Source of the DNA: Nitrospirota bacterium
Lineage (GTDB): Bacteria; Nitrospirota; Thermodesulfovibrionia; UBA6902
DNA length: 64,000 bases
Assembly: GCA_016215115.1 (NCBI GenBank)
Contig: JACRLN010000051.1
Span: forward strand, 1-64,000
Reading direction: 5' to 3'
This document shows positions 7,485 to 44,335 of this stretch, piece after piece (within the stretch, counting starts at the first letter, position 1; every line of letters starts with the position of its first letter). A model generated the notes under the pieces. That model was not told where the DNA came from. It searched no databases and saw nothing but the letters and a program-made list of their open reading frames with translations. Both the position numbers and the translations under genes were made by a program.

Positions 7485-7517
7485 AAACCGATGACTGAAC
7501 GAATTTATAAACGAACT

Positions 7518-8069
7518 CTATTTTATCCTCTTTGATATTTCCTTAAACTCCAGGGTTCCGGCATTTTCAAGCAATTGGAATAAAACAATCTCGGTGCAGG
7601 TTATCACAGCGCCTGCGTCTCGCATAAGTTCCCTGCCGGTCTGAAAATCATCTTTTTTCCTGGAACAAACAGCATCGCTTACAAGATGAACTGAATAATT
7701 TTCTTTCAGAAGACTTAAACACGTCTGCAAGACGCAGACATGTGTCTCCATTCCTGCAAGGATAATATGGGTCCTTTTCAGGGATGCTGTTTTTCTGAGG
7801 AAACCGTCACTTTTGCAGCAGTCAAAAGTTACTTTCTCAAGAGGACGATAAACAGGAATCGCTTCTTTAATATCGTAGATCGTAGGGCCCAGCCCTTCAG
7901 GATACTGCTCTGTAACAATTATAGGAATATAGAGAAGTTTTGCAGCCTCGATAAGGTGCAGACAGTTGACCGTAACTTTCTGTTTCTGATCCATAACAAC
8001 TGCAAGTTTTTCCTGAATATCTACGATGAGGAGAGCAGTATTGTCTTTGCTGAGAGTGAATTTGTCCAT
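7518..8069 (-). CDS. Isochorismatase-family cysteine hydrolase
   Basis: A 183-residue cytoplasmic hydrolase of the isochorismatase/nicotinamidase superfamily. The catalytic triad candidates are Asp in LLIVDIQ, a central Lys in the PLEKVTFDCC region, and Cys in GMETHVC. The Cys is preceded by the usual cis-peptide-like ILAGMETHV segment. It lies 12 bp downstream of acs in the same direction. The substrate is not predictable; many such genes are annotated as YcaC-like hydrolases. Confidence 0.87.
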   Translation of the reverse strand: MDKFTLSKDNTALLIVDIQEKLAVVMDQKQKVTVNCLHLIEAAKLLYIPIIVTEQYPEGLGPTIYDIKEAIPVYRPLEKVTFDCCKSDGFLRKTASLKRTHIILAGMETHVCVLQTCLSLLKENYSVHLVSDAVCSRKKDDFQTGRELMRDAGAVITCTEIVLFQLLENAGTLEFKEISKRIK

Positions 8070-8081
8070 AATTTTATTTTT

Positions 8082-10055: not shown

Positions 10056-10320
10056 TTGAACCTCCCGTTTATATTAATATCATTTAACCTGAACTGCCTG
10101 GTTTAAAAATTATAACGTATTATAATTATCAGCGCTTTGAAATAAAAGTACAGAATATAAATTGCAAATCATATAATATTCATCGGTTATGTTATACACT
10201 AACTTGAGCGTTCTTTTAATGCCTTATATATATTTACAGTAAATTATCGCAACATGTCAGGTGATTTAAGATAGAGGGGAAGCAACAAAATCTCTCAATT
10301 TAGATGTAACGTATTAATAT

Positions 10321-10644
10321 ATGATACGATTCCTGCTTAAGAAGATTATCTCAAGACAAAAAGAACTGATTTTGCAGGAGGCGTCCCGTATTCAGGACTT
10401 TATGCGCCTTCTGATGAAGCTTCGAAACACAGGGAAGAAGTGGACAAGGGAAGAAAAGAAACAACTCAAATTACACATAATACATTTATCAGTCTATGTC
10501 CCTGTATTAATAATTTTCCTGTTGCCGGGCGGATCGCTGCTGATACCCATTCTTGCAGATATACTTGAGAGGAGAAAAAAAAAGGAAAGGCTAATACAAC
10601 AAGACGCTGATTTAGTATCAAAGAGAAATAAATATGAAAAGTAA
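10321..10644 (+). CDS. LETM1-like small membrane protein
   Basis: A 107-residue basic protein with one hydrophobic segment containing VYVPVLIIFLLPGGSLLIPILADIL. The LLPGGS(L/I)L(I/L)P motif is typical of bacterial proteins with a LETM1-like region. No Shine-Dalgarno is evident at 10321, though a GAGGGG lies 45 bp upstream. It overlaps the next gene by 11 bp. The function is unknown. Confidence 0.7.
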   Translation: MIRFLLKKIISRQKELILQEASRIQDFMRLLMKLRNTGKKWTREEKKQLKLHIIHLSVYVPVLIIFLLPGGSLLIPILADILERRKKKERLIQQDADLVSKRNKYEK

Positions 10645-11023: not shown

Positions 11024-13144
11024 TTAATCCGTCTTCTTCACCTGAACAAATCTGTATTTCCCAAGAGTTAAAAGATAATTTGTCAATGCTTCAAATTCCC
11101 ATTTTTGAAATTTAAATTTCGGCATTCTCACATCAGATTGTATGGACTGCGGGTCTTTGAGCCATTGTTCAAACCATTCCTTCGTCAACCGGCTTGCAAC
11201 ATCTGTATGATCGGGGCCGACCTGCCCCCCTCTTCCATTCACGCGATGACACCCGACACAGGCGAATATTTCGTGATATAGTTTTTCTCCATCATCAATA
11301 TCTTCCGGTTGCACTTCTTTTTTTAGCTCAAAAGGGTAAGGATAAGGGATTTCGGAAAGAAAAGCCAAATATTCAATTGCATTATTTATCTCTTTTTCAG
11401 ACAGCTTGAAATCCGGCATCCTCGCTTTGAGGATGGGCTCAGGTCTAATTTTGTAGGGGGTTTTCAGAAAAGCAAACAACCAGTCCGGTCTGCTTTTCTT
11501 CCCCTCTTTAGTCAGATCGACGCTTACATCCCCGCCTTTTTTATTAAGTTTATGGCAGCCCAGGCAATTATATTTTTCAAAAACCTTTTTGCCTCTTATC
11601 TCCGGACTATCAGGCTCAATCAGGGTTTTCATGTATTTCACAGGAACAGCATCTTTTCGCGCACCCAAAAGAAAAGTAACCAGGGCCTTTGCCTGCTGTT
11701 CATTAAATCCATAATTCGGCATTCGGGCTACTATCTTATCTGAAGTGAATTTTTCAGGATGCATAACCTTCATCATCAGCCAATCAGCGAGGGTTTTCTT
11801 AATATCGGTTATATTGCCCCAGAACAGTTCATCAACCCGTTTGCTTCCTATCCCGTCAAGCGGAGGCGCGTCGTATCCGGCAGGCAATTTTTCAATCTCG
11901 TGACAACCAGTGCATCCTTTATCTTTCACCAGTTTTTTCCCTTTGTTTATGTTTTTCAGCAAGAATTTGTTTTGCCCAGTAAATACTTTGGTTATGTCAT
12001 TCCGGGCTTGACCCGGAATCCAGTTGTCTCTCTGGATTCCCGCCTTCGCGGGAATGACATCCCCTTTTTCCCTTCCCTTTTTTTTCAGAGTTACAAGATA
12101 AACGGCAATGTTTTGGATCTCTTCTTCAGACATCACGAAGTCGGGGATCTTTGCCTTGGGATCATATGCCTTAGGATTCTTCAAGAACCTGTAAGGCCAG
12201 TCAGCGTTTACTTTATTCCCTATGCCGGATAAATCAGGCGCAAAGTTATTGCCTTTTTCATCAATCATGTGACAGCCCAAACAACCGAGTTCTTTAACAA
12301 GATTTTTACCTTCAACTGAATCTCCCTTTTCAAATTCCCCCTCACCCCCCTTCGCTAAAGGGGGGGGCACACCCCTCACCCCTCTTATTAGAGGGGAATA
12401 AATTCCCCCTTTGAAAAAGGGGGATGTAGGGGGATTTTCATTACCTACAGTCAGGCTCAAGAGATAATCTGCCATATACCCTATCTCGTTATCGCTCAGC
12501 TTTGGTCCCGGCATCTTCGTGTTTTTCAGGTACTCTTTGGGATCTTTCAGCCATTTTATGAGCCAATCCCTGTTCACCTTGCTGCCTATTGCAGTCAGGG
12601 CTGGACCGATGCGCTCCGGCCTTTCATATCCTTTCAGTTTATGACATCCGATACAGTTGTATTCATTAAAAAGCTTCCATCCCTGTATAAAAACCGGAGC
12701 ACCTTTTAATTCAACAGTCAGAGGCAGTTTATGATTCATGGGATGGCATTTCCCGCATGATGACTGCGCAAAAGAACCTTTTAAAACAGGCTTTGTCCAG
12801 TTCTTCACATCGCCATGTGCATCATCGACTGTCAATGCAGCACCCTGTCCTTCATGACACGTAACACACCCGAATTTTTCAACCTTATGATGTTTCAGGT
12901 AATCGCCAGAATGGGTCTTGAAAGGTTGAGGTTTATTGCTGAAACCAGGCTTATCTATCCCCTGGTGGCAGGTGATGCACCGGTCTGTTTCGCCGAGGTC
13001 CTGAAGACGCAGTTGTTGAATCTTTTCTTTTTGGAACTTTTTCCACGGACGATCATATTCAGCATAAAGCGCCCAGATGATAACTGCTACAAGTGTTAAA
13101 CAAAATACAGCATTTAAAATTAATTTATTGCGTGTTAATTTCAT
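11024..13144 (-). CDS. Octaheme c-type cytochrome of a bc-type complex
   Basis: A 706-residue protein with an N-terminal membrane anchor and eight CxxCH heme sites, at about C56, C93, C130, C164, C288, C411, C527 and C629. Several are cytochrome-c-like modules ending in MPxF/MPG-type Met ligands. It is the last gene after Rieske and split cytochrome b, so it is likely the electron exit of that complex. Residues about 237-276 and 362-383 are translated dispersed repeats. The ATG at 13144 is chosen because an upstream ATG at 13189 would translate a palindrome (VGATRRVAPTF) as N-terminus. Confidence 0.88.
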   Translation of the reverse strand: MKLTRNKLILNAVFCLTLVAVIIWALYAEYDRPWKKFQKEKIQQLRLQDLGETDRCITCHQGIDKPGFSNKPQPFKTHSGDYLKHHKVEKFGCVTCHEGQGAALTVDDAHGDVKNWTKPVLKGSFAQSSCGKCHPMNHKLPLTVELKGAPVFIQGWKLFNEYNCIGCHKLKGYERPERIGPALTAIGSKVNRDWLIKWLKDPKEYLKNTKMPGPKLSDNEIGYMADYLLSLTVGNENPPTSPFFKGGIYSPLIRGVRGVPPPLAKGGEGEFEKGDSVEGKNLVKELGCLGCHMIDEKGNNFAPDLSGIGNKVNADWPYRFLKNPKAYDPKAKIPDFVMSEEEIQNIAVYLVTLKKKGREKGDVIPAKAGIQRDNWIPGQARNDITKVFTGQNKFLLKNINKGKKLVKDKGCTGCHEIEKLPAGYDAPPLDGIGSKRVDELFWGNITDIKKTLADWLMMKVMHPEKFTSDKIVARMPNYGFNEQQAKALVTFLLGARKDAVPVKYMKTLIEPDSPEIRGKKVFEKYNCLGCHKLNKKGGDVSVDLTKEGKKSRPDWLFAFLKTPYKIRPEPILKARMPDFKLSEKEINNAIEYLAFLSEIPYPYPFELKKEVQPEDIDDGEKLYHEIFACVGCHRVNGRGGQVGPDHTDVASRLTKEWFEQWLKDPQSIQSDVRMPKFKFQKWEFEALTNYLLTLGKYRFVQVKKTD
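11996..12058. repeat. CATTCCGGG-family repeat inserted in frame in the octaheme cytochrome
   Basis: The DNA has the GTCATTCC...GGAATGAC ends of the dispersed family. Translated, it gives the foreign segment VIPAKAGIQRDNWIPGQARN between two heme modules without breaking the frame. Confidence 0.85.
12325..12437. repeat. CCCCCTTT/AAAGGGGG-type repeat inserted in frame in the octaheme cytochrome
   Basis: A C-rich/G-rich palindromic element that translates as PPTSPFFKGGIYSPLIRG and then PPPLAKGGEGEF. The same element type is inside mfd at 45064-45110. It lies between heme sites four and five in a linker. Confidence 0.85.
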
Positions 13145-13154
13145 AAAAATAAAT

Positions 13155-13183
13155 GTAGGGGCGACCCGTCGGGTCGCCCCTAC
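13155..13183. repeat. 29-bp GTAGGGGCGACC palindrome
   Basis: A near-perfect palindrome whose arms are GTAGGGGCGACC and GGTCGCCCCTAC. It fills the space between the cytochrome b C-terminal gene and the start of the octaheme cytochrome. Relatives lie at 15342-15370, 31816-31840, 43239-43267, 54132-54220 and 55185-55212. Confidence 0.85.
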
Positions 13184-13185
13184 GT

Positions 13186-13914
13186 TCATATATTAAACCA
13201 GGGAGTTACCAGTACATATTTGATGTTAAATACAAGTCTTAAGAAAATCTTGACAGGGACAAAATACATTAAGAGTATTGAAAGCATAATGATTACATAT
13301 CTGACAAAACCGCATTTTTTATAAAAATCTTTTTTTATCAGTTTTGGCATCATCATGCCCAGCCCGAAATAAATTATTAGACTTATTAAGCCGATCTCAG
13401 GATTCAGGCTCCACAGATTTTCTTCTAACTCTTTGACCTTTTCCCATGATTCCCATGGCAAGTACAACTGCCAATTTGGCCCCCTGAGAAAATATCCTAT
13501 GAAAATCAATATCAGCCACATGAGAAACCCGAAAATGAAATTTATAATCGCCAACTTTCTGAGTGAAAAAGTATATTCTCCGCTCCCATGCGGGTCCCTG
13601 TCTATATATGGAATGACCATCAGGCATAGAATGATGATTGCTGGAATCATGACGCCTGCAATCCATGGATCGAAATAAACTAACAACTCCTGCAATCCAA
13701 CAAAATACCATGGTGCCTTTGACGGATTTTCCGAACGTGTCGGAGAAGCTATCTCCAGTAATGGCGCATTTGCGAGTAGTCCCCAGACAATTAAGATAAT
13801 TGTTAAAGCAATCGCAGTCAGGAATTCCATGAATGCCAGGTCTGGCCAGACAAGATGTTTTTTCTTTTCGGTCACAACGGTCTCGATATCCCTCCGTCTT
13901 TTCTTATTCTCCAA
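13186..13914 (-). CDS. Cytochrome b C-terminal subunit (PetD-like, extended)
   Basis: A 242-residue membrane protein carrying the quinol-site region ENPSKAPWYFVGLQELLVYFDPW, equivalent to subunit IV of b6f complexes, with extra C-terminal helices. It pairs with the N-terminal cytochrome b encoded just upstream, overlapping it by 43 bp. The only fitting start is TTG at 13914, inside the upstream gene, so translational coupling is likely. With Rieske and the octaheme cytochrome it forms a quinol:cytochrome c oxidoreductase. Confidence 0.88.
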   Translation of the reverse strand: MENKKRRRDIETVVTEKKKHLVWPDLAFMEFLTAIALTIILIVWGLLANAPLLEIASPTRSENPSKAPWYFVGLQELLVYFDPWIAGVMIPAIIILCLMVIPYIDRDPHGSGEYTFSLRKLAIINFIFGFLMWLILIFIGYFLRGPNWQLYLPWESWEKVKELEENLWSLNPEIGLISLIIYFGLGMMMPKLIKKDFYKKCGFVRYVIIMLSILLMYFVPVKIFLRLVFNIKYVLVTPWFNI

Positions 13915-14630
13915 AAATGGACTGCCATAAAGATAATTGCCGCTGCAGGCAGCGCCATGATATGCAGCACATAAAATCTTAAAAGGGCATTGGCCCCTAT
14001 CTCTGTCCCTCCAAGGATCATAAAGCGGACATCGTTATACTTATTTAGCAGTGCAAAGGGTCCCTCATGTCCTATTACCGGTGCGGCCCTTATCATATTT
14101 GTGCCCACCGTTATTGCCCAGTAAGCCAATTGGTCCCATGGCAGGAGATAGCCGGTGAAACTCAGTAAAAATGTTGTAACCAGTAAGACTACGCCAATAA
14201 CCCAGTTAAACTCCCTCGGGGGCTTATATGAGCCTGTCAGAAAGACCCTAAGCATATGCAACATAATAGTAACTAACATTAAATGAGCGGCCCATCTGTG
14301 CAGATTTCTCAGAATGATACCGAAAGGCACATCAAATTCCAGATACTTCATGTCGAGATAGACATACTCCGGAACAGGGCGGTAATAAAACATCAGAAGT
14401 ATTCCTGTTATTACTTCAACTAAAAACATAAAAAACGTTATCCCGCCCATACACCAGGTAAATCTTATCTTCATTGCGTGAGAAGGTATTTTTACAGGAT
14501 GAAGATGAAGAAATACATTTGATTTTATCTGGAGGGTCCTGTTTTCTTTTGTATCCGTATAAGTATGACGGAAGACGGATTTATAGATTTGAGAGTCGGT
14601 TATTTTATTCCTGAGATTTTTTCCTTTCAA
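13872..14630 (-). CDS. Cytochrome b N-terminal subunit (PetB-like)
   Basis: A 252-residue protein with four transmembrane helices. The heme-ligand histidines lie in LRNLHRWAAHLMLVTIMLHMLRVF and in RFYVLHIMALPAAAIIFMAVHFWR. TGYLLPWDQLAYWA marks the quinol-oxidation loop region. The start is an unusual TTG at 14630, supported by a perfect GGAGG (14642-14638) seven bases upstream. An ATG between them is in a different, short frame. It encodes the b-heme core of the bc complex. Confidence 0.92.
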   Translation of the reverse strand: MKGKNLRNKITDSQIYKSVFRHTYTDTKENRTLQIKSNVFLHLHPVKIPSHAMKIRFTWCMGGITFFMFLVEVITGILLMFYYRPVPEYVYLDMKYLEFDVPFGIILRNLHRWAAHLMLVTIMLHMLRVFLTGSYKPPREFNWVIGVVLLVTTFLLSFTGYLLPWDQLAYWAITVGTNMIRAAPVIGHEGPFALLNKYNDVRFMILGGTEIGANALLRFYVLHIMALPAAAIIFMAVHFWRIRKDGGISRPL

Positions 14631-14736: not shown

Positions 14737-15249
14737 TCACACCTCCACATATGCTTCCGGCTTTTCAAATTCCTTAAACGTATATACCCTGCTTTTATCC
14801 ACGATAATCATTCCGTCTTTGCCGATTGATAATTTGAAACGGTCAAGCGGTCTTGGCGCAGGACCTGCGAAGTTAACTCCGTTACCGCGGAACTGGCTGC
14901 CGTGACATGGACATTTAAAGATACCCTCCTCGGCAAACCAGTTTGGAGTGCAACCTAAATGAGTGCATTTGGCATGTATCGCATATATGCGGTTTCTCTC
15001 CTTCACTACCCAGACAGATTGCTCCTCCTTCCAGTTTTCATATACTCTATGGCTTGTTGATCCATCTGTTTTGAATTCATCAGGAAAGCCGATATTGAAA
15101 GTTGATGGCTTTTCAAAAAGGACCCGGGGATACAGAAAGCGAAGAATGCTTCCAATTGTAATTCCGAATGTGACCAGCAGAGAACCCCAGCCTGCAATCT
15201 GAAGAAGACTGCGACGGGAGATGCCGGTTTTATTAATGTCTGTAGTCAT
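14737..15249 (-). CDS. Rieske iron-sulfur subunit of the bc-type complex
   Basis: A 170-residue protein with a twin-arginine-like SRRSLLQ and a membrane anchor in the first 40 residues. The soluble Rieske domain has CTHLGC (C95, H97, C100) and CPCHGS (C113, C115, H116), giving two Cys and two His ligands for [2Fe-2S] plus a disulfide pair. It sits upstream of cytochrome b in the operon and should move electrons from quinol to the c-type cytochrome. Confidence 0.93.
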   Translation of the reverse strand: MTTDINKTGISRRSLLQIAGWGSLLVTFGITIGSILRFLYPRVLFEKPSTFNIGFPDEFKTDGSTSHRVYENWKEEQSVWVVKERNRIYAIHAKCTHLGCTPNWFAEEGIFKCPCHGSQFRGNGVNFAGPAPRPLDRFKLSIGKDGMIIVDKSRVYTFKEFEKPEAYVEV

Positions 15250-15408: not shown

Positions 15409-17772
15409 CTATATCATCACAGTTTTCACAATATTCACCGGCACCATCCTGTCCCACTCTGCAAGTTTCGGGTCTGCCTTTTCACTTGTCACCATATTTG
15501 GAGTAGATTCAGTCTTTGGATAAAGAGACATAACATCTACAACTCCGAGCGCGGTTAACCCGCTTACTTTTGCTACAGCCCTCATACTGCCGTTTCTGGA
15601 AGTCAGGGTAACCCAATCTCCGCTTTTCACGCTTATTGCCCTGGCGTCATTTGGATTAATGCTTACTGTCTGCTCAGGCAGTCTTTCGTAAAGGGTCTGG
15701 GTCAGCGGCACATTCAGCCCGTTATTGTAAAAGTTGTATCCAGTGTTCCAGATTTCATTAGCGCGATGCATTATCATCCAGAATGGATACTCATTTGTAA
15801 CTTTGTCTCTAAGGGGATGGTTGTAAGGATCAAAATCAACCAGAGCCTTTACGGGATCAAGGTGCGCCTTGCCGTCATCGTGTTTAAAGCGCCTTCCCAT
15901 CACCTCTTCTGTCTCGGGCGAATAGAGCCGCGCTATGCTCCTGCGGTTTCTGTAAGGGAATTGAATGCCGTTCGTGCCGGCCTTTATAAGGTCATTCCAC
16001 GTTATCTCCGAAATATCGCTGGTGAAATGGCCTTTTGTCTGGGCGTTGCATTCTTCATAAATCTCCTGCTCGTTTTTCCAGTCAAACCCTTTAAGCCCCA
16101 TGCGCTTTGCAAGTTTTGCAACGATCCACCAGTCCGGTTTCGCATCGCCGGGAGGGTCCATGAAGCCCTGTTGAATATGGATCCTGCGGTCCTCGCTGGC
16201 CTGAATGCAATTCCATTCTCCCCATGTTGCAGCAGGGAAGACCACGTCTGCCGCCGCTGTAGTGTCTGTCGGATAAATCTCATTCACAATGAGGAACATC
16301 TTATCAATCTGCGGTTTATATTTGCTCAGGTTCGGAAGCTGGATGTATATATTGCTGATATATGACCAGAGGGCCTTTACTTCTCCCTTGTCAATCTTGT
16401 CGCATATACTTCTCATTGCGCTGTCTCCGTTTGGAGCCGGTGGATCAGCCCATGTCCCTCTCGGATGTCCGCCTGCCCTGGATGTACATGCCCCGGGTTT
16501 TCCCGCATTGCCAAGGATAATCCCCATTGCGCTGTATGCAACTTCATTTTCATAACCTGTTACCTGATGCATGATTCCCTTTTCAAAGAGTACCATTGTC
16601 TGACCTTTGTATTTTGCAAGCATCTCCGCCGCAGCCTTGATCTTTGCGGCCGAAATCCCGGTGACCTTCTCGGCATTTTCAGGAGCGAATCTGCTGTTCA
16701 AAACGGTGTCTTTAAGTGTGCTGAAACCGGTCGCATACTTCTGAACAAAATCTTTGTCGTACAAATCATTCTTCACGAGCACATGCATCAAAGATGCGCC
16801 GAGTATCGCGTCCGTCCCCGGGTTTATCTGCAGGAACAACCCGCCGCTTTTAACTGCGTCGTCAGCCATTTGCGTCTTCCTCGGATCGACAAAGATCAGT
16901 TTTATGTCGCCCTTGTTCATGCCGCCCTTGGACAGCGCATTGTAATACCAGGATGAACCTGTGTCCTTCAGATTTTTTCCGGCGCAGAAGATACATTTGG
17001 TTTTAGTAAAATCTTCCACAGTGAAGGACCTGGTCCCGCCGCCGACTACATCGGCAAGACCCCAGCTTTCATCACCCCAGAAGAGATATCCGTTGCCTGC
17101 GAGGGTGCTTGATTTAATCCCGGTAAAAAGCCATTTCAGGAATGCATATGTGTTCTGGAGATAACCCCAGTCGCCGTAAACCGCGCCGACTGCATCCGGG
17201 CCGTGTTTATCAATAATCTTCTGAAGATTATATGCGGTGAATTCAATCGCCTCATCCCATGAAACCTCAACAAGAGGCCCGGACTTCCCGCCCTTGCGGA
17301 TCATCGGCTTCTTGAGGCGAATCCTCGTCGGAAGTTTTTCGGAATACAGACTCTGTGCATTGAAGGACCCGCGCACAGAGTAATTTGATCCGCTTGCAAC
17401 GTCTTTGTTATCCGGCACCACCATGATGTTTACGTCCTTGCCGTTCTTTTTTGCCTCAATAGTAAAAACGGGGTTCGGCCAGTCTCCTCTCATCTTTTCG
17501 ACCGGGAAAAATTTTTCTTTTTCCGGCTTGCGGCCGGTTCCTTTAGGCCATACATACACCTTATATCCGCACATAACATGGCAGTAACGACAAGCGGTAT
17601 CATAAGTCTCGGCATTCGCTGGAGGGAGTTCCGCAAATTCTGTTGCCTTTGCCCCGGGAAATTTGTCTGCTGCAAAGGCGGGGATGCCTTTATCGAGCAC
17701 ACACGCCCCTGCGGCGCCTGCCGCCGATATTTTTAGTAAATCCCTTCTTGAAAATTTCTTTTCGTTGCTCAT
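15409..17772 (-). CDS. AioA-like molybdopterin oxidoreductase, catalytic subunit
   Basis: A 787-residue DMSO-reductase-superfamily enzyme closest, by recalled motifs, to arsenite oxidase AioA. A twin-arginine SRRDLLK signal starts it. C61, C64 and C68 with S132 match the three-Cys-one-Ser [3Fe-4S] site. SRAGGHPRG (R432, H436) matches two AioA arsenite-pocket residues. DFDPYNHPL and HRANEIWNTGYN match the C-terminal cofactor region. The position of AioA His195 appears to be Gly226, so the substrate is uncertain. It follows directly after the AioB-like gene. Periplasmic arsenite oxidation is likely but unproven; iodate or another oxyanion is possible. Confidence 0.85.
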   Translation of the reverse strand: MSNEKKFSRRDLLKISAAGAAGACVLDKGIPAFAADKFPGAKATEFAELPPANAETYDTACRYCHVMCGYKVYVWPKGTGRKPEKEKFFPVEKMRGDWPNPVFTIEAKKNGKDVNIMVVPDNKDVASGSNYSVRGSFNAQSLYSEKLPTRIRLKKPMIRKGGKSGPLVEVSWDEAIEFTAYNLQKIIDKHGPDAVGAVYGDWGYLQNTYAFLKWLFTGIKSSTLAGNGYLFWGDESWGLADVVGGGTRSFTVEDFTKTKCIFCAGKNLKDTGSSWYYNALSKGGMNKGDIKLIFVDPRKTQMADDAVKSGGLFLQINPGTDAILGASLMHVLVKNDLYDKDFVQKYATGFSTLKDTVLNSRFAPENAEKVTGISAAKIKAAAEMLAKYKGQTMVLFEKGIMHQVTGYENEVAYSAMGIILGNAGKPGACTSRAGGHPRGTWADPPAPNGDSAMRSICDKIDKGEVKALWSYISNIYIQLPNLSKYKPQIDKMFLIVNEIYPTDTTAAADVVFPAATWGEWNCIQASEDRRIHIQQGFMDPPGDAKPDWWIVAKLAKRMGLKGFDWKNEQEIYEECNAQTKGHFTSDISEITWNDLIKAGTNGIQFPYRNRRSIARLYSPETEEVMGRRFKHDDGKAHLDPVKALVDFDPYNHPLRDKVTNEYPFWMIMHRANEIWNTGYNFYNNGLNVPLTQTLYERLPEQTVSINPNDARAISVKSGDWVTLTSRNGSMRAVAKVSGLTALGVVDVMSLYPKTESTPNMVTSEKADPKLAEWDRMVPVNIVKTVMI

Positions 17773-18300
17773 TTACTTTACCTCCTCCCCGTCTAATAAA
17801 TTGTTTCTGAGTCCATAAATAAGTCCGGCAACCCCAACTGCGTAAATGTCTCCGTTCTTGTCCACCTCTAATGAAATCATCGGCAGATTAGAGGGAGACG
17901 GACCTTCAATGAGCTTTCCGCTTTGCTTTGGATCATATATACTCTGGTGGCATTCACAAATAAGCATCCCGCTTTCTTTGTCAAGTTCAACACCACAGCC
18001 GATATGAGTACAGAATGCACTGTATGCAACAATGCTCTTGTTTGCGCCAACACCTCCTTCAACCGGGCAGCCAAGGTCAACCAGCATGTTCTTTCTTCCA
18101 ACAAGCGGGTAATCGAATTTCACCGGTTTCCCTGTCTTAAGTTCCTTCAGATTGGCAACCTTAATCTGCGGGTAAGTTCCTGAAGACGCCTGAGCCTTGT
18201 CTTTTAAGCCCATGAGCAGAACGGCCGCTCCCGCACCTGCGATACCGGCGGTCTTCAATAGATTCCTTCGCGTCACTTCTTTCTTTTGCTGATGATCCAT
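17773..18300 (-). CDS. AioB-like Rieske subunit of the molybdoenzyme
   Basis: A 175-residue exported protein with a TRRNLLK twin-arginine signal. Its Rieske domain has CTHIGC (C97, H99, C102) and CECHQS (C115, C117, H118). FDYPLVGRKN, VGANKSIVAYSAFCTH and GDIYAVGVAGLIYG match the arsenite oxidase small subunit. Gene order AioB-AioA with adjacent stop and start is the classic aio layout. It should accept electrons from the molybdenum subunit. A GGAGGAGAAG Shine-Dalgarno supports the start. Confidence 0.87.
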   Translation of the reverse strand: MDHQQKKEVTRRNLLKTAGIAGAGAAVLLMGLKDKAQASSGTYPQIKVANLKELKTGKPVKFDYPLVGRKNMLVDLGCPVEGGVGANKSIVAYSAFCTHIGCGVELDKESGMLICECHQSIYDPKQSGKLIEGPSPSNLPMISLEVDKNGDIYAVGVAGLIYGLRNNLLDGEEVK

Positions 18301-18467: not shown

Positions 18468-18866
18468 CTATTCCTCCTGACACCTGCACAATATCCTCAA
18501 ATACATTACCAATGATTTTATCTGCGTCTTACTAAATGTATTCCCCCACGGCGGCATGAGTGTGGATTTACCAACGCCCTTGCCTCCTTTGCTGATTGCG
18601 TCAAAAAGATCCTCGTCGGCTCTTTTAGTCATGAGGTCAGGGTCCGTATGGTTTGCGGGACGCGGATCGAGATTTTTTGCATTGAAACCTTTGCCGTCGC
18701 CTTTGTCCCCGTGGCATGGAGTACAGTACCATTTGTAAATGCTTTCTCCGTTTTTCATAACTGGTTTTTCTACCGCCATAATTTGCGAAAAATCAAAAAG
18801 CAAAAATAAAAATGCAAAAATACAAATCAAAGTTAATAAATGTCTTCCCCTTTTCAAAATAGTCAT
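18468..18866 (-). CDS. Class I cytochrome c
   Basis: A 132-residue exported monoheme cytochrome. A signal peptide (about residues 1-31) precedes the heme site CTPCHG (C48, C51, H52), and LMPPWG supplies the Met ligand (M104). It is the first gene of the molybdoenzyme operon and probably carries electrons between the AioBA-like enzyme and the bc complex or a terminal oxidase. No Shine-Dalgarno is visible because a terminator-like hairpin ends right at its start codon. Confidence 0.9.
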   Translation of the reverse strand: MTILKRGRHLLTLICIFAFLFLLFDFSQIMAVEKPVMKNGESIYKWYCTPCHGDKGDGKGFNAKNLDPRPANHTDPDLMTKRADEDLFDAISKGGKGVGKSTLMPPWGNTFSKTQIKSLVMYLRILCRCQEE

Positions 18867-19632: not shown

Positions 19633-20589
19633 TTATACCAGCGACCCGCTGCAGCTTGCCCCTGCTCCTGCAGTACACATAAAACACAACGGACCCGTGA
19701 CAATGTCCCTGTTGCTTAACGATGAATAATCAAAACTGTTTACTGTATTTGAGTTTCTGTTTTTCACGGGAAGTTTGAGCATCTGCCAAAAATCACAGTC
19801 ATACAATGTTCCGTCAGGGGAAACACTGATAAGAGAGCGGCACATGACGTTTTTTACTGTTGCGGGATTGAATTTTTCTTCAAGCTGTTTTAGATATGCT
19901 TCCTTATCTGTGCTGGACATGGTCTTACCTAGTCTGCCGATCGGCATATTGCTTAAAGCTATAAGGTGATTAAACGTTATTCCGTGCATCTCCCCCAATT
20001 TATTTTTATATGTGCTTTCCAGCATATTCTGGTCCGGAGCGATTTCCGCCTTTGCAGGATTGAACATGATATCTATTTCAAGACCTGTCCCTTCCTGACC
20101 ATACCCTAATTTGTTCAGACTTTTTAACACGGCTATGGCCTTTTCATATGTGCCTTTTCCCCTCTGCCCATTTACGCCTTCAGCAGTATAACAGGGGAGT
20201 GAAGCTATGATTTTAACCCTGTTCTGTGCAAGGAATTCGGGGATGTCTTTCATTTCCGGATCTGTCAGTATTGCAAGATTTGAACGAACCATTACCTTTT
20301 TACCCATATCAACTGCGGACTTTATAAAACGTCTGTAGTTGGGGTTTAGTTCAGGTGACCCTCCGGTAATATCAACAGTAGTTATTGTGTCATTTTCCCG
20401 TAAAATATCGAGCAATCTGTCAACTGTTGCTGATGACATCTCTTCTTTTCTGTCAGGAGAAGCCCCGACATGGCAGTGAGCACATCTCAGATTGCACTTG
20501 TATCCCAGATTGACCTGAAGAGTGGAAATATTCTCTGCTTTTAAAGGATATGCATCGATAGTTGATATCTTTTTCTCAAAGGCATTCAT
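19633..20589 (-). CDS. arsS: Arsenosugar biosynthesis radical SAM protein ArsS
   Basis: The 318-residue protein has the radical SAM cluster motif in GYKCNLRCAHCHVGA near the N-terminus, the glycine-rich DITGGSPEL and the Cys-rich C-terminus CFMCTAGAGASCSGSLV. This is the rSAM/Cys-rich family to which ArsS belongs. ArsS attaches a 5'-deoxyadenosyl group to dimethylarsenite on the way to arsenosugars. Some relatives carry selenocysteine in the C-terminus; here every position is Cys. A GAGGAGG Shine-Dalgarno precedes the ATG, with a sigma-54 promoter about 120 bp upstream. ArsM is not in the window. Confidence 0.9.
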   Translation of the reverse strand: MNAFEKKISTIDAYPLKAENISTLQVNLGYKCNLRCAHCHVGASPDRKEEMSSATVDRLLDILRENDTITTVDITGGSPELNPNYRRFIKSAVDMGKKVMVRSNLAILTDPEMKDIPEFLAQNRVKIIASLPCYTAEGVNGQRGKGTYEKAIAVLKSLNKLGYGQEGTGLEIDIMFNPAKAEIAPDQNMLESTYKNKLGEMHGITFNHLIALSNMPIGRLGKTMSSTDKEAYLKQLEEKFNPATVKNVMCRSLISVSPDGTLYDCDFWQMLKLPVKNRNSNTVNSFDYSSLSNRDIVTGPLCFMCTAGAGASCSGSLV

Positions 20590-25808: not shown

Positions 25809-26582
25809 TTACTTCTGTGATATAAGAAATCTCTTTACGGTTTTAGGCAGGGGTAACAAAACCAGGTCTTCCCTGCATATCTCCGGTTTATACGATTCAT
25901 AATCAAGGATGCCCAATTTCTTCTCAAGTAATTGTGATGCAAGCGATAGAATATAGCATGATATCCAGAATCCTATCGCCATACAGATATACGCCGCATA
26001 AATCCTGTTGGGCTGACGCTGGCTTATAATGACGCCTGTCCGTGTGAGATCAATGATGCCGACTATGTAAACAATTGAGGTGCTTTTAAAAAGGGAATTA
26101 AAAAAACTGACGAACGAAGGGAGCATCTTTTTGAAGGCCTGAGGTAAAATAATAAGTTTTACCGCCTGATACCGCGTCATTCCGGTTGACAGGGCAGCCT
26201 CCATTTGTCCCATCGGGACTGCTAATATGCCTGCCCTCACTATTTCCGCCTGATAAGCGGATGCGTATACAGAAAGAGAAATGACCGCGCACCAGAAGAG
26301 GGGCATCTTAGCGCCGACAACGGGCAGGAAGAAATAAAACCAGAAAATAATAAGGAGCAAAGGCGTTGATCTGATGACATCGACATAAAGACCGCAGGGG
26401 TGACGTAAATATCTTCTGCACGACGTCCTTCCCAGTCCGAACAGTATGCCGAAAAACAGGCCGATTATGATGGAGAGCATCGCGAGAACAATATTTAAAG
26501 TCAAACCCGTAAGCTGGCCTTTTGGATAGGCGCCTATGAGATAAAATTTCCAGTTTGCAAGCTGTTCAAAAAGGAACTCCAT
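25809..26582 (-). CDS. Polar amino acid-type ABC permease (HisM/GltK-like)
   Basis: A 257-residue inner-membrane permease with about five helices. The EAA-type loop is MGQMEAALSTGMTRYQAVKLIILPQAF. DVIRSTPLLLIIFWFYF is the typical HisMQ signature. It lies 1 bp from its partner permease and ends the three-gene group of binding protein and two permeases. Specificity is unknown. Confidence 0.9.
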   Translation of the reverse strand: MEFLFEQLANWKFYLIGAYPKGQLTGLTLNIVLAMLSIIIGLFFGILFGLGRTSCRRYLRHPCGLYVDVIRSTPLLLIIFWFYFFLPVVGAKMPLFWCAVISLSVYASAYQAEIVRAGILAVPMGQMEAALSTGMTRYQAVKLIILPQAFKKMLPSFVSFFNSLFKSTSIVYIVGIIDLTRTGVIISQRQPNRIYAAYICMAIGFWISCYILSLASQLLEKKLGILDYESYKPEICREDLVLLPLPKTVKRFLISQK

Positions 26583-26583
26583 A

Positions 26584-27321
26584 TCAGGTCCTCATCTGCG
26601 TAATACTTGTAACGTCAATTTTCAACCACCTCTCAAGCCGTATCATGATTACTGCCAGGGTGAGAGATATTCCGATGTAAAAAACCGTTGCCAGAAAAGT
26701 CACTTCAAGTCCGCGAAATGTAATTGATTCAACCTGCTGTGTCGCCCATGTGAGTTCAGGCGCCGCTATAGCCATACAGAGGGAGCTGTTTTTAAAATTA
26801 TGGATCATCCTCGTTCCAAGAGGAGGGAGGATAGTCCTGAATGCCATGGGTAGAATTATGTACTGTATCTGCTGAAACCTGTTAAGCCCGGTAGAAACTG
26901 CGGCCTCAATATGACCTCTTGGCACACTCAGAAGCCCTGTCCTGACAATATCGGAGACATAAGCGGAATTATCAACAGTAAGCCCGAGTATACCGGCTAT
27001 AACTGAATAATATGTATACCGGTTTAATGTATCAGTCAGGCCGAAAGGCAGTATTTGCGGAAAAACGAAATAAAAAAATAAAAGCCAGAAAAGTCCTGGG
27101 ATATTCCTCACGATTTCAACATACACTTTGGCCGGTATGTTAAGAAATTTAAACCTCGAGGTCCTCATGATTGCGAGGATTGTACCAACGAGAAGGGATA
27201 ATACTGATGTTACGGCGGCTATCAGGAATGTGAGCTTTACACCGGTAATCAGCCATCCTAAATAGGGCTCCCTGAAAGGGATACTCCAGTCAAAATCATA
27301 TCGTAGATTGAAAATCTTCAT
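26584..27321 (-). CDS. Polar amino acid-type ABC permease (HisQ/GltJ-like)
   Basis: A 245-residue permease with VEIVRNIPGLFWLLFFYF and the EAA loop RGHIEAAVSTGLNRFQQIQYIILPMAF. It pairs with the downstream permease to make the channel heterodimer. Paired inverted repeats lie in the gap to the binding-protein gene. Confidence 0.9.
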   Translation of the reverse strand: MKIFNLRYDFDWSIPFREPYLGWLITGVKLTFLIAAVTSVLSLLVGTILAIMRTSRFKFLNIPAKVYVEIVRNIPGLFWLLFFYFVFPQILPFGLTDTLNRYTYYSVIAGILGLTVDNSAYVSDIVRTGLLSVPRGHIEAAVSTGLNRFQQIQYIILPMAFRTILPPLGTRMIHNFKNSSLCMAIAAPELTWATQQVESITFRGLEVTFLATVFYIGISLTLAVIMIRLERWLKIDVTSITQMRT

Positions 27322-27472: not shown

Positions 27473-27488
27473 CTACTTTATACTAATT

Positions 27489-28355
27489 TTAATCAGGCCA
27501 TACATAGAGCATCTCTCCATAGGTATCCTTTGGTAAACGGGGTCTTGCATTAATGGGGAGAGGTGAAAGGCCCTTCGGGCCAAACCATTTCTGGTAAATC
27601 TTCTCATAGGTGCCGTCCTTAAGCATATCCTGTAGGGTAAAGCTTATCTTGTCCCTCCAGTCGCTTTCGTTCTCAGGCACTCCGATGCCATAAAGGCCGG
27701 GGCTCCAGATCGCACCGCCTACTGCTTCGTATTCTTCTCCAAGGGTGCCTGCTACCGAAGCCATAATTTGAGCGTCCTGAGAATATGCATCGATCTTGCC
27801 TTGTTTCAACGCCAGGAATCCCTCCGCGCTATTCTGGAAGGAAAGCATTTCCGGTTTTGCGTCGGTGTATTTGGCAATCTCCTGGGGCGCTGCAATAAAT
27901 GCGTTTGAGCCCTGATCCACGCCTATCTTCTTCCCGCCAAGGTCTTTTATTGATTTAATTTTTCCTTTCTTCGCATAGAATATTTTACCCGTCCAGAAGT
28001 ACGGCGGCTCAGCATAATCCATTTGTTCTTCACGGCTTCTGGTCTGGCTTATGTTTGCCAGAGAGATGTCAATTGATCTGTTCGCCAGAAAGGCGATCCT
28101 TGTCTTGTTGTCTACTAACACTCTTTCAACTTTTACGCCCAGTTTTTCAGCGATTGCGCTGCCCAGATCAACGTCAAAACCGGTCCACTCGCCTTTTTCA
28201 TCAATGTAGTTCATCGGTGGAGTTGCATTACCATTACCTATGCGCACTACACCTCTTTTCTTTACCTCGTCAAGGAGGCTCTCTCCTGATGCATAAGAAA
28301 TAAATGAGACGAGAAATATCACTGCCAGCATAAATACTACGGTACTTCTTTTCAT
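27489..28355 (-). CDS. ABC transporter periplasmic solute-binding protein, family 3
   Basis: A 288-residue exported protein with a signal peptide of about 24 residues. The family 3 pattern includes VVRIGNGNATPPMNYIDEKGEWTGFDVDL, ISQTRSREEQMDYAEPPYF with the carboxylate-binding Arg, and AEGFLALKQGKIDAYSQDA. Family members bind polar amino acids. The exact ligand is unknown, and an amino-acid-like or arsenical ligand cannot be excluded. It is first in a sigma-54-driven operon with the two permeases. Confidence 0.9.
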   Translation of the reverse strand: MKRSTVVFMLAVIFLVSFISYASGESLLDEVKKRGVVRIGNGNATPPMNYIDEKGEWTGFDVDLGSAIAEKLGVKVERVLVDNKTRIAFLANRSIDISLANISQTRSREEQMDYAEPPYFWTGKIFYAKKGKIKSIKDLGGKKIGVDQGSNAFIAAPQEIAKYTDAKPEMLSFQNSAEGFLALKQGKIDAYSQDAQIMASVAGTLGEEYEAVGGAIWSPGLYGIGVPENESDWRDKISFTLQDMLKDGTYEKIYQKWFGPKGLSPLPINARPRLPKDTYGEMLYVWPD

Positions 28356-28575: not shown

Positions 28576-28612
28576 TGCACAAAGATTGAACATTATGTTC
28601 ATTCTTTGTGCA
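28576..28612. promoter_or_regulatory. 37-bp palindrome (TGAACA-N3-TGTTCA core), putative activator site
   Basis: The arms TGCACAAAGA-N-TGAACA and TGTTCA-N-TCTTTGTGCA are complementary except at one pair. It overlaps the stop codon of the adjacent regulator gene and lies about 140 bp upstream of the binding-protein promoter. It could serve both as enhancer site and as hairpin terminator of the regulator gene. Confidence 0.65.
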
Positions 28613-29993
28613 AATCATCCCTGCTCATCTTTTCCCTGAGGGTATTTCTTGAGATACCGAGAAGCTTTGCGGCGAGCGCCTGATTGTTATTGGTTAATTC
28701 AAGCGCCCTTTTGACCAGAAGACGCTCAAATTGTGACACCGCCTCTTTGTAAATGTCTTTCCCTCCTCTTCGCAGGTGCTCATTTACTGCATCTGATAAC
28801 GCCTTTTCAATATCTGATTCACCTCTGTCAGTCAATCTTAGCTGTGACAGCCACTCGCACTCTTTCGAAGAAAGATAATTGCCTGCGCATAAAACCATCC
28901 CCCTCTGGATAGCGTTTTGAAGCTCTCTAATATTTCCGGGCCAGTCGTATTTTTTAAAATCCTGCAGAATCTCTGATGATATGCCTTTTACTTCTTTGCC
29001 AAATTCCCTGTTGAATTTTCTGATGAAGTAATTGATAAGGTCTTCGATGTCTTCCTTTCTTTCCCTGAGCGGAGGTATGGTAATGCTTACAACGTTCAAA
29101 CGCCAGTACAGGTCATCTCTGAATTTCCCCGTGTTTATCAATGACTCAAGATTTTTGTTCGTTGCCGCGATAATCCTGACATCTGTTTTAATTGTATCGC
29201 TTCCCCCGAGCCTCTGAATGCAGCCGTCCTGAAGCACTCTGAGCATCTTTGCCTGAAGGGGCAAAGGCATATCCCCGATTTCATCGAGGAACATAGTACC
29301 CCCGTCACACTGTTCAAATTTACCGATCTTTTTTGTGTCAGCCCCGGTAAATGCGCCTTTTTCATGACCGAAAAGCTCGCTCTCAAGAAGGTTCTCCGGA
29401 ATAGCTGCACAATTGACAGGGAGAAAAGGGTTATTAGCTCTTTTACTATGTTGATAAACAGCCCTTGCAATCAGTTCCTTCCCCGTGCCTGTCTCACCAC
29501 ATAAAAGCACGGCGACATCGCTCTTTGCAACCTGCCCGATCTTTTTAAATATCTCAAGCATGGCAGTACTTCTGCCGATAATCGTGTCGCCTTCTTCCGA
29601 CTCTCCTTCAAAGGATACGGGGATACTCATCTTCCCCGCTGCAATGGCTTTTTCAACTAATGATACTAATTGGTTATTATCAACCGGTTTTGTGATGTAA
29701 TCGTACGCCCCGTACTTCATCGCGGTTATCGCTTTTTCGGATGTGCTGAAAGCGGTCATTATTATTGCAGTAAGAGCGGGATGAATTGTCTTCAATTTTT
29801 TGAGGGTTTCAAGACCGTCCATTCCGGGCATATTGATGTCCATGATAACGAGGTCGGGGAGCTCTTTCCCTGCCAGTTCCATCGCCTTTTCACCGCTTGA
29901 GGCAGTGATAACATCATAGTCATGCCTTCCGAGAATTTTTTTGAATGAATGGCAGATTCCCGGCTCGTCGTCAACTATAAGGATTTTATCCAT
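28599..29993 (-). CDS. Sigma-54-dependent response regulator (NtrC family)
   Basis: A 464-residue three-domain activator. The receiver domain has its phosphoacceptor at D52 (LVIMDINMPGMDG). The AAA+ domain has Walker A GETGTGKE and the sigma-54 contact loop GAFTGA. A C-terminal Fis-type HTH (NNQALAAKLLGISRNTLREKM) binds DNA. No histidine kinase is adjacent. Its gene ends inside the palindrome that precedes the ABC binding-protein promoter, so it is the natural candidate activator of the palindrome-bearing promoters. Confidence 0.94.
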   Translation of the reverse strand: MDKILIVDDEPGICHSFKKILGRHDYDVITASSGEKAMELAGKELPDLVIMDINMPGMDGLETLKKLKTIHPALTAIIMTAFSTSEKAITAMKYGAYDYITKPVDNNQLVSLVEKAIAAGKMSIPVSFEGESEEGDTIIGRSTAMLEIFKKIGQVAKSDVAVLLCGETGTGKELIARAVYQHSKRANNPFLPVNCAAIPENLLESELFGHEKGAFTGADTKKIGKFEQCDGGTMFLDEIGDMPLPLQAKMLRVLQDGCIQRLGGSDTIKTDVRIIAATNKNLESLINTGKFRDDLYWRLNVVSITIPPLRERKEDIEDLINYFIRKFNREFGKEVKGISSEILQDFKKYDWPGNIRELQNAIQRGMVLCAGNYLSSKECEWLSQLRLTDRGESDIEKALSDAVNEHLRRGGKDIYKEAVSQFERLLVKRALELTNNNQALAAKLLGISRNTLREKMSRDDLHKE

Positions 29994-41723: not shown

Positions 41724-43118
41724 TTAAGTGTTCACAGGCAGTCTTACGGTAAATACCGTCCCTGTCCCTTCGTTGCTGTGAAAGAATACTTTGCCGCCGT
41801 GGGACTTAACTATATTATATACTATCGAAAGTCCGAGTCCCGTGCCATTTTCCTTTGTTGTGAAAAATGGATCAAAAACCTTTGAGCGTATATCCGATGA
41901 TATGCCGGTGCCTTTGTCGCTGATAACCATATCAAGGAATTTGTCATCAGTCTTGCCTGTAATCCTGATATCGCCTCCGTTGGGCATAGCCTGAATGGCA
42001 TTCAGGATGAGATTCAGGAATACATGTTCAAGGAGCGCCCTGTCTCCTTTTATTACGGGAAGATTCTCCATCATATCTTTGTATACCGCTATGTCATACC
42101 TGCGAATGTCAAAAGCTGCAAGCGACAGGACCCTCTCTATCAGGATATTTATATTTATATCCGAGACCTCAAAGTCTTTCTGTTTTACAAAGCCGAGAAA
42201 ACTTGTGATTATAGTTTCAATCTTCTCTATCTCCCTGTTGATGATCTCCGCATCCTCTTTTGTCATATCCGGCTGGTCCTTGAAGGCCTGAAACAGCATT
42301 TTTAGGGTGGTCATGGGATTTTTCAGTTCATGCGCAAGGCCTGATGAAATCTGCCCGATTGTCGAGATTTTTTCCGCCTCGAGAAGATGAGTGTATGTAT
42401 AGGCTTCTTCCATTTTCTCTTTTACTCTCTTGAGCTCCATTGAAAGCCTGTTAAAGTTTCGAGCAAGGTATCCAATTTCGTCTCCGTAGGAAACATCTAC
42501 TCTCTTGCCGAACTCACCCCTCCCGAGGACTTTAGTAAATTCTACAAATTTATTTAATGGTTCTGTAATTAAACGGCTGAAAACAAATGAGGCAATTACT
42601 CCCAAAAGAGTGACAAAAATAATAATAGGGATAGTAATTTTTCTTAATTGTGTTATTGTATGCTTTAGATTATCCTCTCTGATCCCCAAGTGAAGCTCTG
42701 ATTTCATGCCATTAAAGATTTTCACTCCTACATCCCGGAGATAACCCTTTTCCGTATCAAGAAGCTGGATATTTGTTGTTTTGTTATTGAGAGGATTCCA
42801 GGATAGAATGTCAGGAGGAATTTCATTGTTAAATGTATTTGCAACCAAGCGGTTTTCTTCATTTACAATAAAGATATATTCAATATCATTTTCCTTGTTC
42901 AGGACTTCCTGGATGTCCTTTGTTGCCTGAAAATAGTCTTTTAGTAAAATATAGTTTGCAACTCTGTCAGAAAGGTTAACCGCGACTGAAACCGCCCTCT
43001 TCTCCAGTTCTTCCCGGAATGCATTTATTATAACGCCTCTTATTGAGAGGAGAGTAAAGAATACAACGCTGACGGCGATTGTCGTTGTAAGGAGAGTTAT
43101 TTTTGTTCTGAGTTTCAT
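41724..43118 (-). CDS. Membrane histidine kinase with HAMP domain
   Basis: A 464-residue kinase. The first transmembrane helix is near the N-terminus (TLLTTTIAVSVVFFTLL) and a periplasmic sensor of about 110 residues follows. The second helix (IPIIIFVTLLGVIASFVF) leads into HAMP, and the His is in TIGQISSGLAHELKNPM. N and G boxes include NLILNAIQAMPNGG and TGLGLSIVYN. It is upstream of the soluble kinase and downstream of the PhnD-like gene. Confidence 0.92.
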   Translation of the reverse strand: MKLRTKITLLTTTIAVSVVFFTLLSIRGVIINAFREELEKRAVSVAVNLSDRVANYILLKDYFQATKDIQEVLNKENDIEYIFIVNEENRLVANTFNNEIPPDILSWNPLNNKTTNIQLLDTEKGYLRDVGVKIFNGMKSELHLGIREDNLKHTITQLRKITIPIIIFVTLLGVIASFVFSRLITEPLNKFVEFTKVLGRGEFGKRVDVSYGDEIGYLARNFNRLSMELKRVKEKMEEAYTYTHLLEAEKISTIGQISSGLAHELKNPMTTLKMLFQAFKDQPDMTKEDAEIINREIEKIETIITSFLGFVKQKDFEVSDININILIERVLSLAAFDIRRYDIAVYKDMMENLPVIKGDRALLEHVFLNLILNAIQAMPNGGDIRITGKTDDKFLDMVISDKGTGISSDIRSKVFDPFFTTKENGTGLGLSIVYNIVKSHGGKVFFHSNEGTGTVFTVRLPVNT

Positions 43119-43267: not shown

Positions 43268-43271
43268 ATTT

Positions 43272-44201
43272 TCATTTCGTTAGCAATCCATACCTTATTG
43301 CCAGCGTTTTCACCTTTTCCAACTCAAGTTCGTTCACTTTTGTAAAACCCATAGGCATTTCTGTCTTATCCCAGTCAACAAGCATATCTTTGTGCTTTCC
43401 CATTGGTTCAAATGCAAGCAGGGCGGCCCTGACAGCCTCAACAGTCTTGCTATCAACAGAATTGTTATAGGCAATAAGACTTCCTGGATATGGTTCTGAT
43501 ATCTTTAATATTTTTATTTTCCCTTCGGACTGAAGTTTTTTTGCAAGGACATCCTGTATGCCTCCCGCATCACACTCGCCGTTTAAAACTGATTTCACAG
43601 TATCAAGGTGGGAGCTTGTATAAAAGTATTTGCCGAGATCATTAAGGGTAATGCCTTCTTCCTCCAGCATCTTCCTTGGTATGAGATGCCCCTGTGTTGA
43701 CATCTTTGCTCCAAATGCAAAACATTTCCCTTTCAGGTCTTTTAAATTTGGTATACTGCTTTTTGGCGCTGTGAAGATTATTGAATGATATGTAGTATCC
43801 CCTTCTTTATTAACCCCGTTTACAAGATATTTAATTCCGTATTTAGCCTCGCCAATAATATAGCTGAGGACCCCTACAGCAGCAAAGTGTGTGACGCCTT
43901 TTCCGAGGTCCTCAACAGTATCCTCATATTTTTCGGAAAATTTTATGCGGAAACGCATGCCGGTGGCGCTTTCAAGATATTTAAGCAGAGGAATGTAGCT
44001 CCTGACATCTTCTTTCGGTCCAACCCGAAGGTCAAATCCAAACCAGATGGTGTCCTGCGGAGGGTATTCAATTTCTTCCACCTTATCAACTGTCTTTTTA
44101 GTAAGACTAACCTTTTTAGGTGTTTCTTCCTTCACGCATCCTGAAGATACAAAAAGTAAAAAAGAGAATAATATGAAGAATGAAATGGCAGGTATTTTCA
44201 T
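43272..44201 (-). CDS. PhnD-like periplasmic substrate-binding lipoprotein
   Basis: About 309 residues. A signal peptide ends at the lipobox VSSGC. The body has the phosphate/phosphonate-binding PhnD fold (WFGFDLRVGPKEDVRSYIPLLKYLES, FAAVGVLSYIIGEAKYGI, LKDLKGKCFAFGAKMSTQGHLIP). No transporter genes are near. Standing just before two kinases it is more likely a ligand sensor subunit than an importer. The ATG at 44201 yields the lipoprotein signal; ATGs further upstream do not. Confidence 0.85.
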   Translation of the reverse strand: MKIPAISFFILFSFLLFVSSGCVKEETPKKVSLTKKTVDKVEEIEYPPQDTIWFGFDLRVGPKEDVRSYIPLLKYLESATGMRFRIKFSEKYEDTVEDLGKGVTHFAAVGVLSYIIGEAKYGIKYLVNGVNKEGDTTYHSIIFTAPKSSIPNLKDLKGKCFAFGAKMSTQGHLIPRKMLEEEGITLNDLGKYFYTSSHLDTVKSVLNGECDAGGIQDVLAKKLQSEGKIKILKISEPYPGSLIAYNNSVDSKTVEAVRAALLAFEPMGKHKDMLVDWDKTEMPMGFTKVNELELEKVKTLAIRYGLLTK

Positions 44202-44335
44202 TGCAATATCAGCTTGTATTATTGCTTTTCTCGTGTAGAGATTGCTGTTGGACATTAATTCAATTATTATAACTGAACAGGTCAATAATGTGATATACTG
44301 GATTATCAAAGAGCAACAAAGGATAACTTTCTGCC

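Follow-up and report, generated by a model that had tools for sequence, protein, structure and literature searches.

To our knowledge, two activities have so far been assigned to the Aio family, arsenite oxidation and iodate reduction. The family is thought to be ancient. Its enzymes swap two electrons with the substrate at molybdenum by oxo transfer, after which the electrons pass by way of a 3Fe-4S cluster and a Rieske centre to cytochrome c. We know of no need, in ordinary Aio, for a dedicated quinone-linked Rieske/cytochrome b complex. In crystals of Aio with bound arsenic or antimony, the second sphere around the substrate is formed by D169, H199, R201, E207, K413, R447, H451 and E453 (PMC10448176), and the substitution E453A by itself cuts the activity of the NT-26 enzyme by 65% (PMC10448176). 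In the model proposed for the iodate reductase IdrAB, the electron path runs from quinone through bc1 and cytochrome c to the enzyme (PMC8692401). The sensors AioX, ArxX and ArrX have an arsenite-binding residue, Cys106 (PMC5908839). Oxidation of Sb(III) has been ascribed to the NaoABC complex, in which NaoA is reported to be nearest to NapA and to be accompanied by a 4Fe-4S subunit (PMC11521347). Bosea sp. AS-1 oxidises both Sb(III) and As(III), and additional oxidase genes were suspected by the authors of that work (PMC8453088).

The window analysed here is a stretch of 64,000 nucleotides from a Nitrospirota bacterium (GCA_016215115.1, JACRLN010000051.1), part of contig C42 of a 2.82 Mb genome that is 99% complete. 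The open reading frame of interest was confirmed in its extent, coordinates and strand, and its product is a protein of 787 aa with a Tat signal. The features of the window that bear on it are listed in Table 1.

Table 1. Features of the window relevant to the AioA-like gene, in order of position
Feature	Position	Strand	Basis and remarks
Octaheme c-type cytochrome	11024..13189	-	8 CxxCH; full-length relatives also 8
Cytochrome b C-terminal, subunit IV-like	13186..13914	-	PF00032, ExtQ-like
Cytochrome b6-like subunit	13872..14630	-	PF00033/PF13631
Second Rieske, of Rieske/cytochrome b complex	14737..15249	-	PF00355, Cytb6f PetC-like; conserved synteny
AioA-like molybdopterin catalytic subunit, bis-MGD + 3Fe-4S type	15409..17772	-	PF00384, PF18465, PF01568, TAT
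RAGGHPR, codons 432-438	16459..16479	-	R432=R447, H436=H451, R438=E453 (NT-26)
Pocket loop GNGYLFWGDE, codons 226-235	17068..17097	-	phmmer, MAFFT, hhalign concordant; N227=H199 (H195 in A. faecalis), Y229=R201, F231=A203 (Mo-ligand position), E235=E207 (NT-26)
AioB-like Rieske small subunit, Tat signal, abuts AioA-like gene	17773..18300	-	TIGR02694
Monoheme c-type cytochrome	18468..18866	-	PF13442, one CxxCH; upstream of AioB-like gene in relatives too
ArsR/SmtB-family regulator, C-terminal Cys residues	18970..19362	-	NF033788 over cut-off
ArsS, arsenosugar-biosynthesis radical SAM protein	19633..20589	-	TIGR04167, 398 bits (cut-off 300)
Two ABC permeases, same island as the regulators	25809..27321	-	PF00528; 74-83% identity in L021, L023, L032
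Family-3 (polar amino-acid type) solute-binding protein	27489..28355	-	PF00497
Sigma-54-dependent response regulator (R)	28599..29993	-	PF00158+PF00072+PF02954
Sensor histidine kinase (S)	41724..43118	-	64-68% identity to operon-side kinase in L021/L024/L025
PhnD/AioX/ArrX-family periplasmic oxyanion-binding protein (X)	43272..44309	-	TIGR01098 over cut-off

The nearest solved relative of the catalytic subunit is AioA (8rtl_E, phmmer E value 5e-59), and the top PDB matches are all AioA structures (8rtl, 8cff and 1g8k; 1e-59 to 1e-56). Its PF18465 (Rieske_3) domain is the 3Fe-4S domain of arsenite oxidase, and the product of the abutting upstream gene is an AioB-type partner, scoring 143.5 bits against TIGR02694 (arsenite_ox_S; cut-off 95.65). 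Together with the monophyly of the superfamily described below, these results place the protein in the Aio family. An ArrA-like or Nap identity was ruled out, AioA being far ahead in both the PDB and the family-profile searches. The cluster ligands, three Cys and Ser132, had been held to match arsenite oxidase, and this is borne out: the CX2CX3C motif and the Ser (C61, C64, C68 and S132) align with C24, C27, C31 and S102 of AioA, and are invariant in 17 members of the lineage. The placement of R432 and H436 at the spacing of R419 and H423 of A. faecalis (R447 and H451 in NT-26) was likewise upheld by the alignment. Against TIGR02693 (arsenite_ox_L), the protein scored 319.2 bits and fell short of the curated cut-off of 359, which even IdrA and the Cytobacillus type pass; the AioA proteins of NT-25 and Thermus reach about 1470-1500 bits.

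The sequence-only reading had set a Gly opposite His195 of A. faecalis AioA. That by-eye alignment was one residue off, as phmmer, MAFFT L-INS-i and profile-profile hhalign concur in pairing His195 with Asn227. The pocket anomaly itself survives realignment, but its description as a single missing residue was an understatement, since R201 and E453 are also replaced, by Tyr229 and Arg438. The window equivalents of the eight second-sphere residues are D201, N227, Y229, E235, K398, R432, H436 and R438, so that five are kept and three changed (H199N, R201Y and E453R). The Mo-ligand position (A203 in Aio) is occupied by Phe231, and the Mo is predicted to be without the usual Ser, Cys, SeCys or Asp ligand. 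AlphaFold, run on the window protein alongside 15 members of the lineage, gave a poor model, with a mean pLDDT of 52.7 and with pocket residues 217-254 below 50.

When the second-sphere residues and the Mo-ligand position are read in NT-26 order, all of the AioA sequences compared give D H R A E K R H E, the IdrA type (n=4) gives S H (K/T/A) (S/N) (D/A/E) K R H (C/R) and the Cytobacillus type D H R K E K R H E. The Nitrospirota lineage (n=17) reads D N Y F E K R H R apart from a few departures, L041 having Q in place of E and the paralogue of L043 and L044 having M in place of K and W in place of the final R; the Bosea AS-1 protein reads D N W F E K R H G. The lineage differs from both the AioA and the IdrA strings and so has a third type of pocket, the change being fixed among its members. 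N227, G228, Y229, F231, R432 and H436 are invariant in the 17 relatives; the pattern is, therefore, no sequencing accident, and the substitutions are probably under selection.

A tree with Fdh-, Nas- and NuoG-type outgroups recovered the Aio superfamily as monophyletic (100/99), split into one group of the Cytobacillus type with IdrA plus AioA and another of Bosea AS-1 with the Nitrospirota lineage (100/100). Forcing the lineage together with AioA alone was rejected (p-AU 0.005), as was forcing it together with IdrA alone (p-AU 0.007), whereas a grouping with the Cytobacillus type was not (p-AU 0.144). With fewer outgroups, the support for the opposing group of AioA, IdrA and Cytobacillus drops to 93/88. 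Several branches are long, so the order near Cytobacillus is provisional; the firm part is the exclusion of the lineage from AioA and IdrA. The small subunits of the Nitrospirota form a separate clade (96/99) in a tree whose deeper part is without resolution. Clustering inside characterised AioA, which had been named as an outcome that would remove the anomaly, was thus not found. Of the possibilities raised earlier, a divergent Aio, a relative of IdrA or something new, it is the last that the tree supports, in the form of a separate deep Aio-family branch outside both AioA and IdrA. The lineage is best read, on these alignments and trees, as a third branch of the family, apart from the branches of arsenite oxidase and of iodate reductase. 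Another deep Aio-family branch is represented on plasmid p1 of Cytobacillus firmus (L055:3857-6286), where a gene encoding Lys at the Mo-ligand position, with H199, R201 and E453 retained, has pst phosphate genes on one side and an ars operon on the other.

Of 396 genomes of the phylum, 10 contain an orthologue at 67-95% identity, as do 17 named GTDB loci, nearly all of them from Nitrospirota (Thermodesulfovibrionia and kin). Judging by record titles and isolate names, the habitats are deep mines and aquifers, together with fluids of hydrothermal or crustal origin. Genomes were searched in a single phylum, in a single class and by one pattern-based scan of GTDB; members outside this range have likely been missed. 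The sole other close relative found was WP_089172995.1 (43.6% identical), from a conjugative plasmid of Bosea sp. AS-1; searched in turn against 385 alphaproteobacterial genomes, a set without a positive control, that protein had no match at E<=1e-45. No description of the Nitrospirota lineage was found in the incomplete literature searched; there could be some overlap between the lineage and the 'unknown clade' of PMC8692401. The loci L037 and L043, titled Deferribacteres, match the Nitrospirota loci L040 and L044 almost exactly, so that the organism given in their records is probably incorrect. L042 has a tandem duplication, aioB-aioA-cytc-aioB-aioA (3831-6721 and 7453-10340), before its Rieske/cytochrome b genes; its AioA-like copies share 70% and 87% identity with the window protein. 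The second paralogue mentioned above (L043:5097-7451 and L044:133-2487; 67-68% to the window protein, with K398 replaced by Met and R438 by Trp) has no Rieske/cytochrome b genes in sight and may have yet another function.

The AioA-like gene belongs to an operon with a recurrent order, namely monoheme cytochrome c, AioB-like, AioA-like, Rieske, cytochrome b6, subunit IV and octaheme cytochrome c, which is kept in nearly every locus with a long enough contig. A cytochrome b orthologue was present in 9/9 operon-bearing genomes tested (fragmented in G207) and in 1/11 others; those of the cytochrome b6-like subunit are 76-82% identical in operon-bearing genomes and in G350. The Rieske/cytochrome b module is not quite exclusive to the operon, since in G350 it occurs without aioBA, on a contig of 6.3 kb (C10, locus L097) where it follows a kinase and a sigma-54 regulator of its own and where the sequence stops before any octaheme gene. 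The cytochrome b gene of one metagenome-assembled genome lies in two frames (L022:11332-11915), through a frameshift or an assembly error. In L021 (11045-11803) and L023 (7114-8001), the second Rieske gene is separated from the cytochrome b gene by an inserted gene for a TauE/SafE-family permease. Respiratory gene content of the window assembly was sampled by family searches, and no COX1-type oxidase was seen in the operon-bearing genomes G140, G340 and G238.

Genes related to metalloids are situated near the operon. ArsS, a protein thought to act on methylated arsenic, adjoins it in five loci; within the family, 7/7 genomes with the operon encode it, against 2/11 without the operon (Fisher p 0.0011, the genomes being non-independent); adding two genomes from another family changed this to 7/9 versus 2/11 (p 0.012). 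ArsS is absent from the operon-carrying f4 genomes. The ArsR/SmtB-family gene occurs in the window copy only (n=1 among the loci), and neither acr3 nor arsM, the latter present in the genome, discriminates between operon-bearing and operon-lacking genomes. Downstream of the operon in L024 there is an ACR3-like permease gene, below the family cut-off. The Bosea AS-1 gene is followed by MoeA/Glp and by an ArsK-like MFS gene whose score of 222 bits, against 36 for the next family, falls short of the ArsK cut-off (400). As metalloid markers, ArsS and ArsR are circumstantial. A PhsA/Psr-like molybdoenzyme under all family cut-offs, with ArrA second among its PDB matches, is encoded about 7 kb from acr3 and arsM (G000 contig C41, ~92.8-103 kb, L006). 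The window also contains two putative RND-type efflux systems (48944-53848 and 59277-63986), one of them heavy-metal (CusA)-like, as named by sequence.

Further upstream of the operon, the relatives encode a kinase and a sigma-54 regulator as well as permeases and a family-3 binding protein; in L024 and L025 a PhnD-type binding protein comes first, giving a consecutive X-S-R triad. The window equivalents, 62-89% identical, are spread over 25809-44309, with genes for PEP-CTERM and other proteins intervening. R is 69-75% identical to the operon-adjacent regulator in L021 and L023-L025, and the family-3 binding protein shares 82-89% identity with its counterparts on the upstream side of the operon (L021, L023-L025 and L032). 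X has PtxB, ArrX and AioX as its PDB matches and is 62-65% identical to the operon-adjacent protein in L024 and L025, but the Cys106 position is Gly in the window and in L024. By homology, then, a triad of the AioXSR/ArrXSR type appears to be linked to the molybdoenzyme. The exported proteins of PEP-CTERM type within this island form a run at 30142-38220 that includes a repeat protein of 1910 aa.

Of the described systems, AioBA of A. faecalis and Pseudorhizobium NT-26 has the same Mo-bis-MGD domains, CX2CX3C...S motif and AioB Rieske, no usual Mo protein ligand predicted, a neighbouring cytochrome c gene and XSR-type regulators in its island. The window protein is, however, only about 28% identical to AioA, carries A203F besides the three second-sphere changes, lies outside the clade and has a Tat signal of its own on the catalytic subunit. 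IdrABP1P2 is alike in superfamily, 3Fe-4S motif, Rieske partner, a shorter pre-pocket loop with no GGAGGG insert and a postulated connection with cytochrome c and a bc-type complex, and differs in keeping His at H199 and in its separate clade. The cytochrome c peroxidases IdrP1 and IdrP2, present beside the Azonexus gene, were found neither in the window unit nor at the loci of its relatives, and an IdrA identity was ruled out by tree and synteny. The Bosea protein (44% identity) shares N, F, E, K, R and H of the pocket and an AioB-like partner, but has Trp at Y229 and Gly at the R438 position, and its locus, on an alphaproteobacterial conjugative plasmid, has no bc complex alongside. NaoABC, of Symbiobacteriaceae, resembles the window unit in its DMSO-reductase family and AioB-like Rieske; it was compared by published description, in which NaoA is placed with NapA (PMC11521347), and a NaoA identity is set apart on that basis.

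The substrate is probably a metalloid, and the enzyme an As/Sb oxidoreductase of the third Aio branch. The reading that we prefer, with a probability of roughly 0.45, is that of a periplasmic oxo-transfer enzyme of the AioBA type that oxidises As(III) or Sb(III). A species of one or the other would be the most likely substrate, oxidised by two-electron oxo transfer. Electrons would move between Mo, the 3Fe-4S cluster, the AioB Rieske, cytochrome c and the Rieske/cytochrome b complex, which would link the enzyme with the quinone pool, or else with the octaheme cytochrome, and an AioXSR-like oxyanion-sensing triad would switch expression. Metalloid neighbours in two unrelated hosts, together with the retention of D169 and E207, argue for a metalloid substrate and, less firmly, for oxidation. 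The linkage of ArsS, the window ArsR, the ACR3-like permease of L024, the ArsK-like neighbour in Bosea with its host's oxidation of Sb(III) and As(III), and a triad architecture as in aio, arx and arr all point to metalloids. Oxidation is made less secure by the alteration of H199, R201 and E453 together, when E453A alone is costly in NT-26, by a sensor without Cys106, by a quinone-linked complex that would be superfluous for an ordinary Aio, by the three operon-bearing genomes without COX1-type oxidases and by the missing ArsS in the f4 genomes. Direction and exact substrate are the least secured steps. Were the enzyme an oxidase, quinone reduction by the Rieske/cytochrome b6 complex would need reverse flow; in a reductase, the complex would feed quinol electrons to the enzyme.

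The latter arrangement is the main rival, though we regard it as rather unlikely: a quinol-driven oxyanion reductase with a path from menaquinol through Rieske/cytochrome b, cytochromes c, the AioB-like Rieske and Mo to a high-potential oxyanion. The Rieske/cytochrome b6 complex is co-encoded in all nine operon-bearing genomes tested and in one of 11 without the operon, and by analogy the electron path of IdrAB may be a precedent for the same direction (PMC8692401). The Arg at the E453 position, as in 3/4 IdrA-type sequences, lies at the funnel mouth and would suit an anion better than neutral As(OH)3; with the three genomes lacking COX1-type oxidases and an oxyanion-binding X without the arsenic-binding Cys, it suggests either a reductase or a different substrate. 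Against reduction stand the absence of IdrP1/IdrP2 from the unit, the position outside the IdrA clade (p-AU 0.007), the retention of D169 and E207 where IdrA has lost the former and often the latter, the arsenic and antimony neighbours, and a Bosea relative without an adjacent bc complex. That the gene encodes an ordinary arsenite oxidase in which the pocket substitutions are functionally neutral is improbable, even though domains, cofactor motifs, AioB partner and cytochrome c neighbour are all shared and the equivalents of R447, H451, K413, E207 and D169 are retained. Grouping with AioA is rejected (p-AU 0.005), and the TIGR02693 cut-off, which even IdrA and the Cytobacillus type clear, is missed; H199 and R201 are found without exception in all AioA compared, and the substitutions, being fixed in the lineage, were probably selected. 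Activity on another arsenic species, such as a methylated or thiolated arsenical, would fit the aromatic pocket (Y229, F231 and W232), the co-occurrence of ArsS with the operon and the arsM in the genome, but arsM does not follow the operon and there is no ArsS beside the Bosea locus; we consider this highly improbable.

Beyond the preferred reading of a metalloid oxidase, we put forward tentatively that this may be a third functional branch of the Aio family, with its own substrate, which might be Sb(III), an arsenical of the organo or thio type, or a different oxyanion, and with a dedicated Rieske/cytochrome b6/octaheme-c respiration in deep-subsurface Nitrospirota, the relative on the plasmid of aerobic Bosea perhaps being the missing antimonite oxidase. 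The Bosea gene is a concrete candidate for the partly unexplained oxidation of Sb(III) and As(III) in that strain. A deep third lineage with a fixed, altered pocket and a quinone-linked complex is a natural experiment on what determines substrate and direction in the Aio family, and 'arsenite oxidase' labels assigned from the small subunit alone could mis-assign the metabolism of deep-subsurface Nitrospirota.
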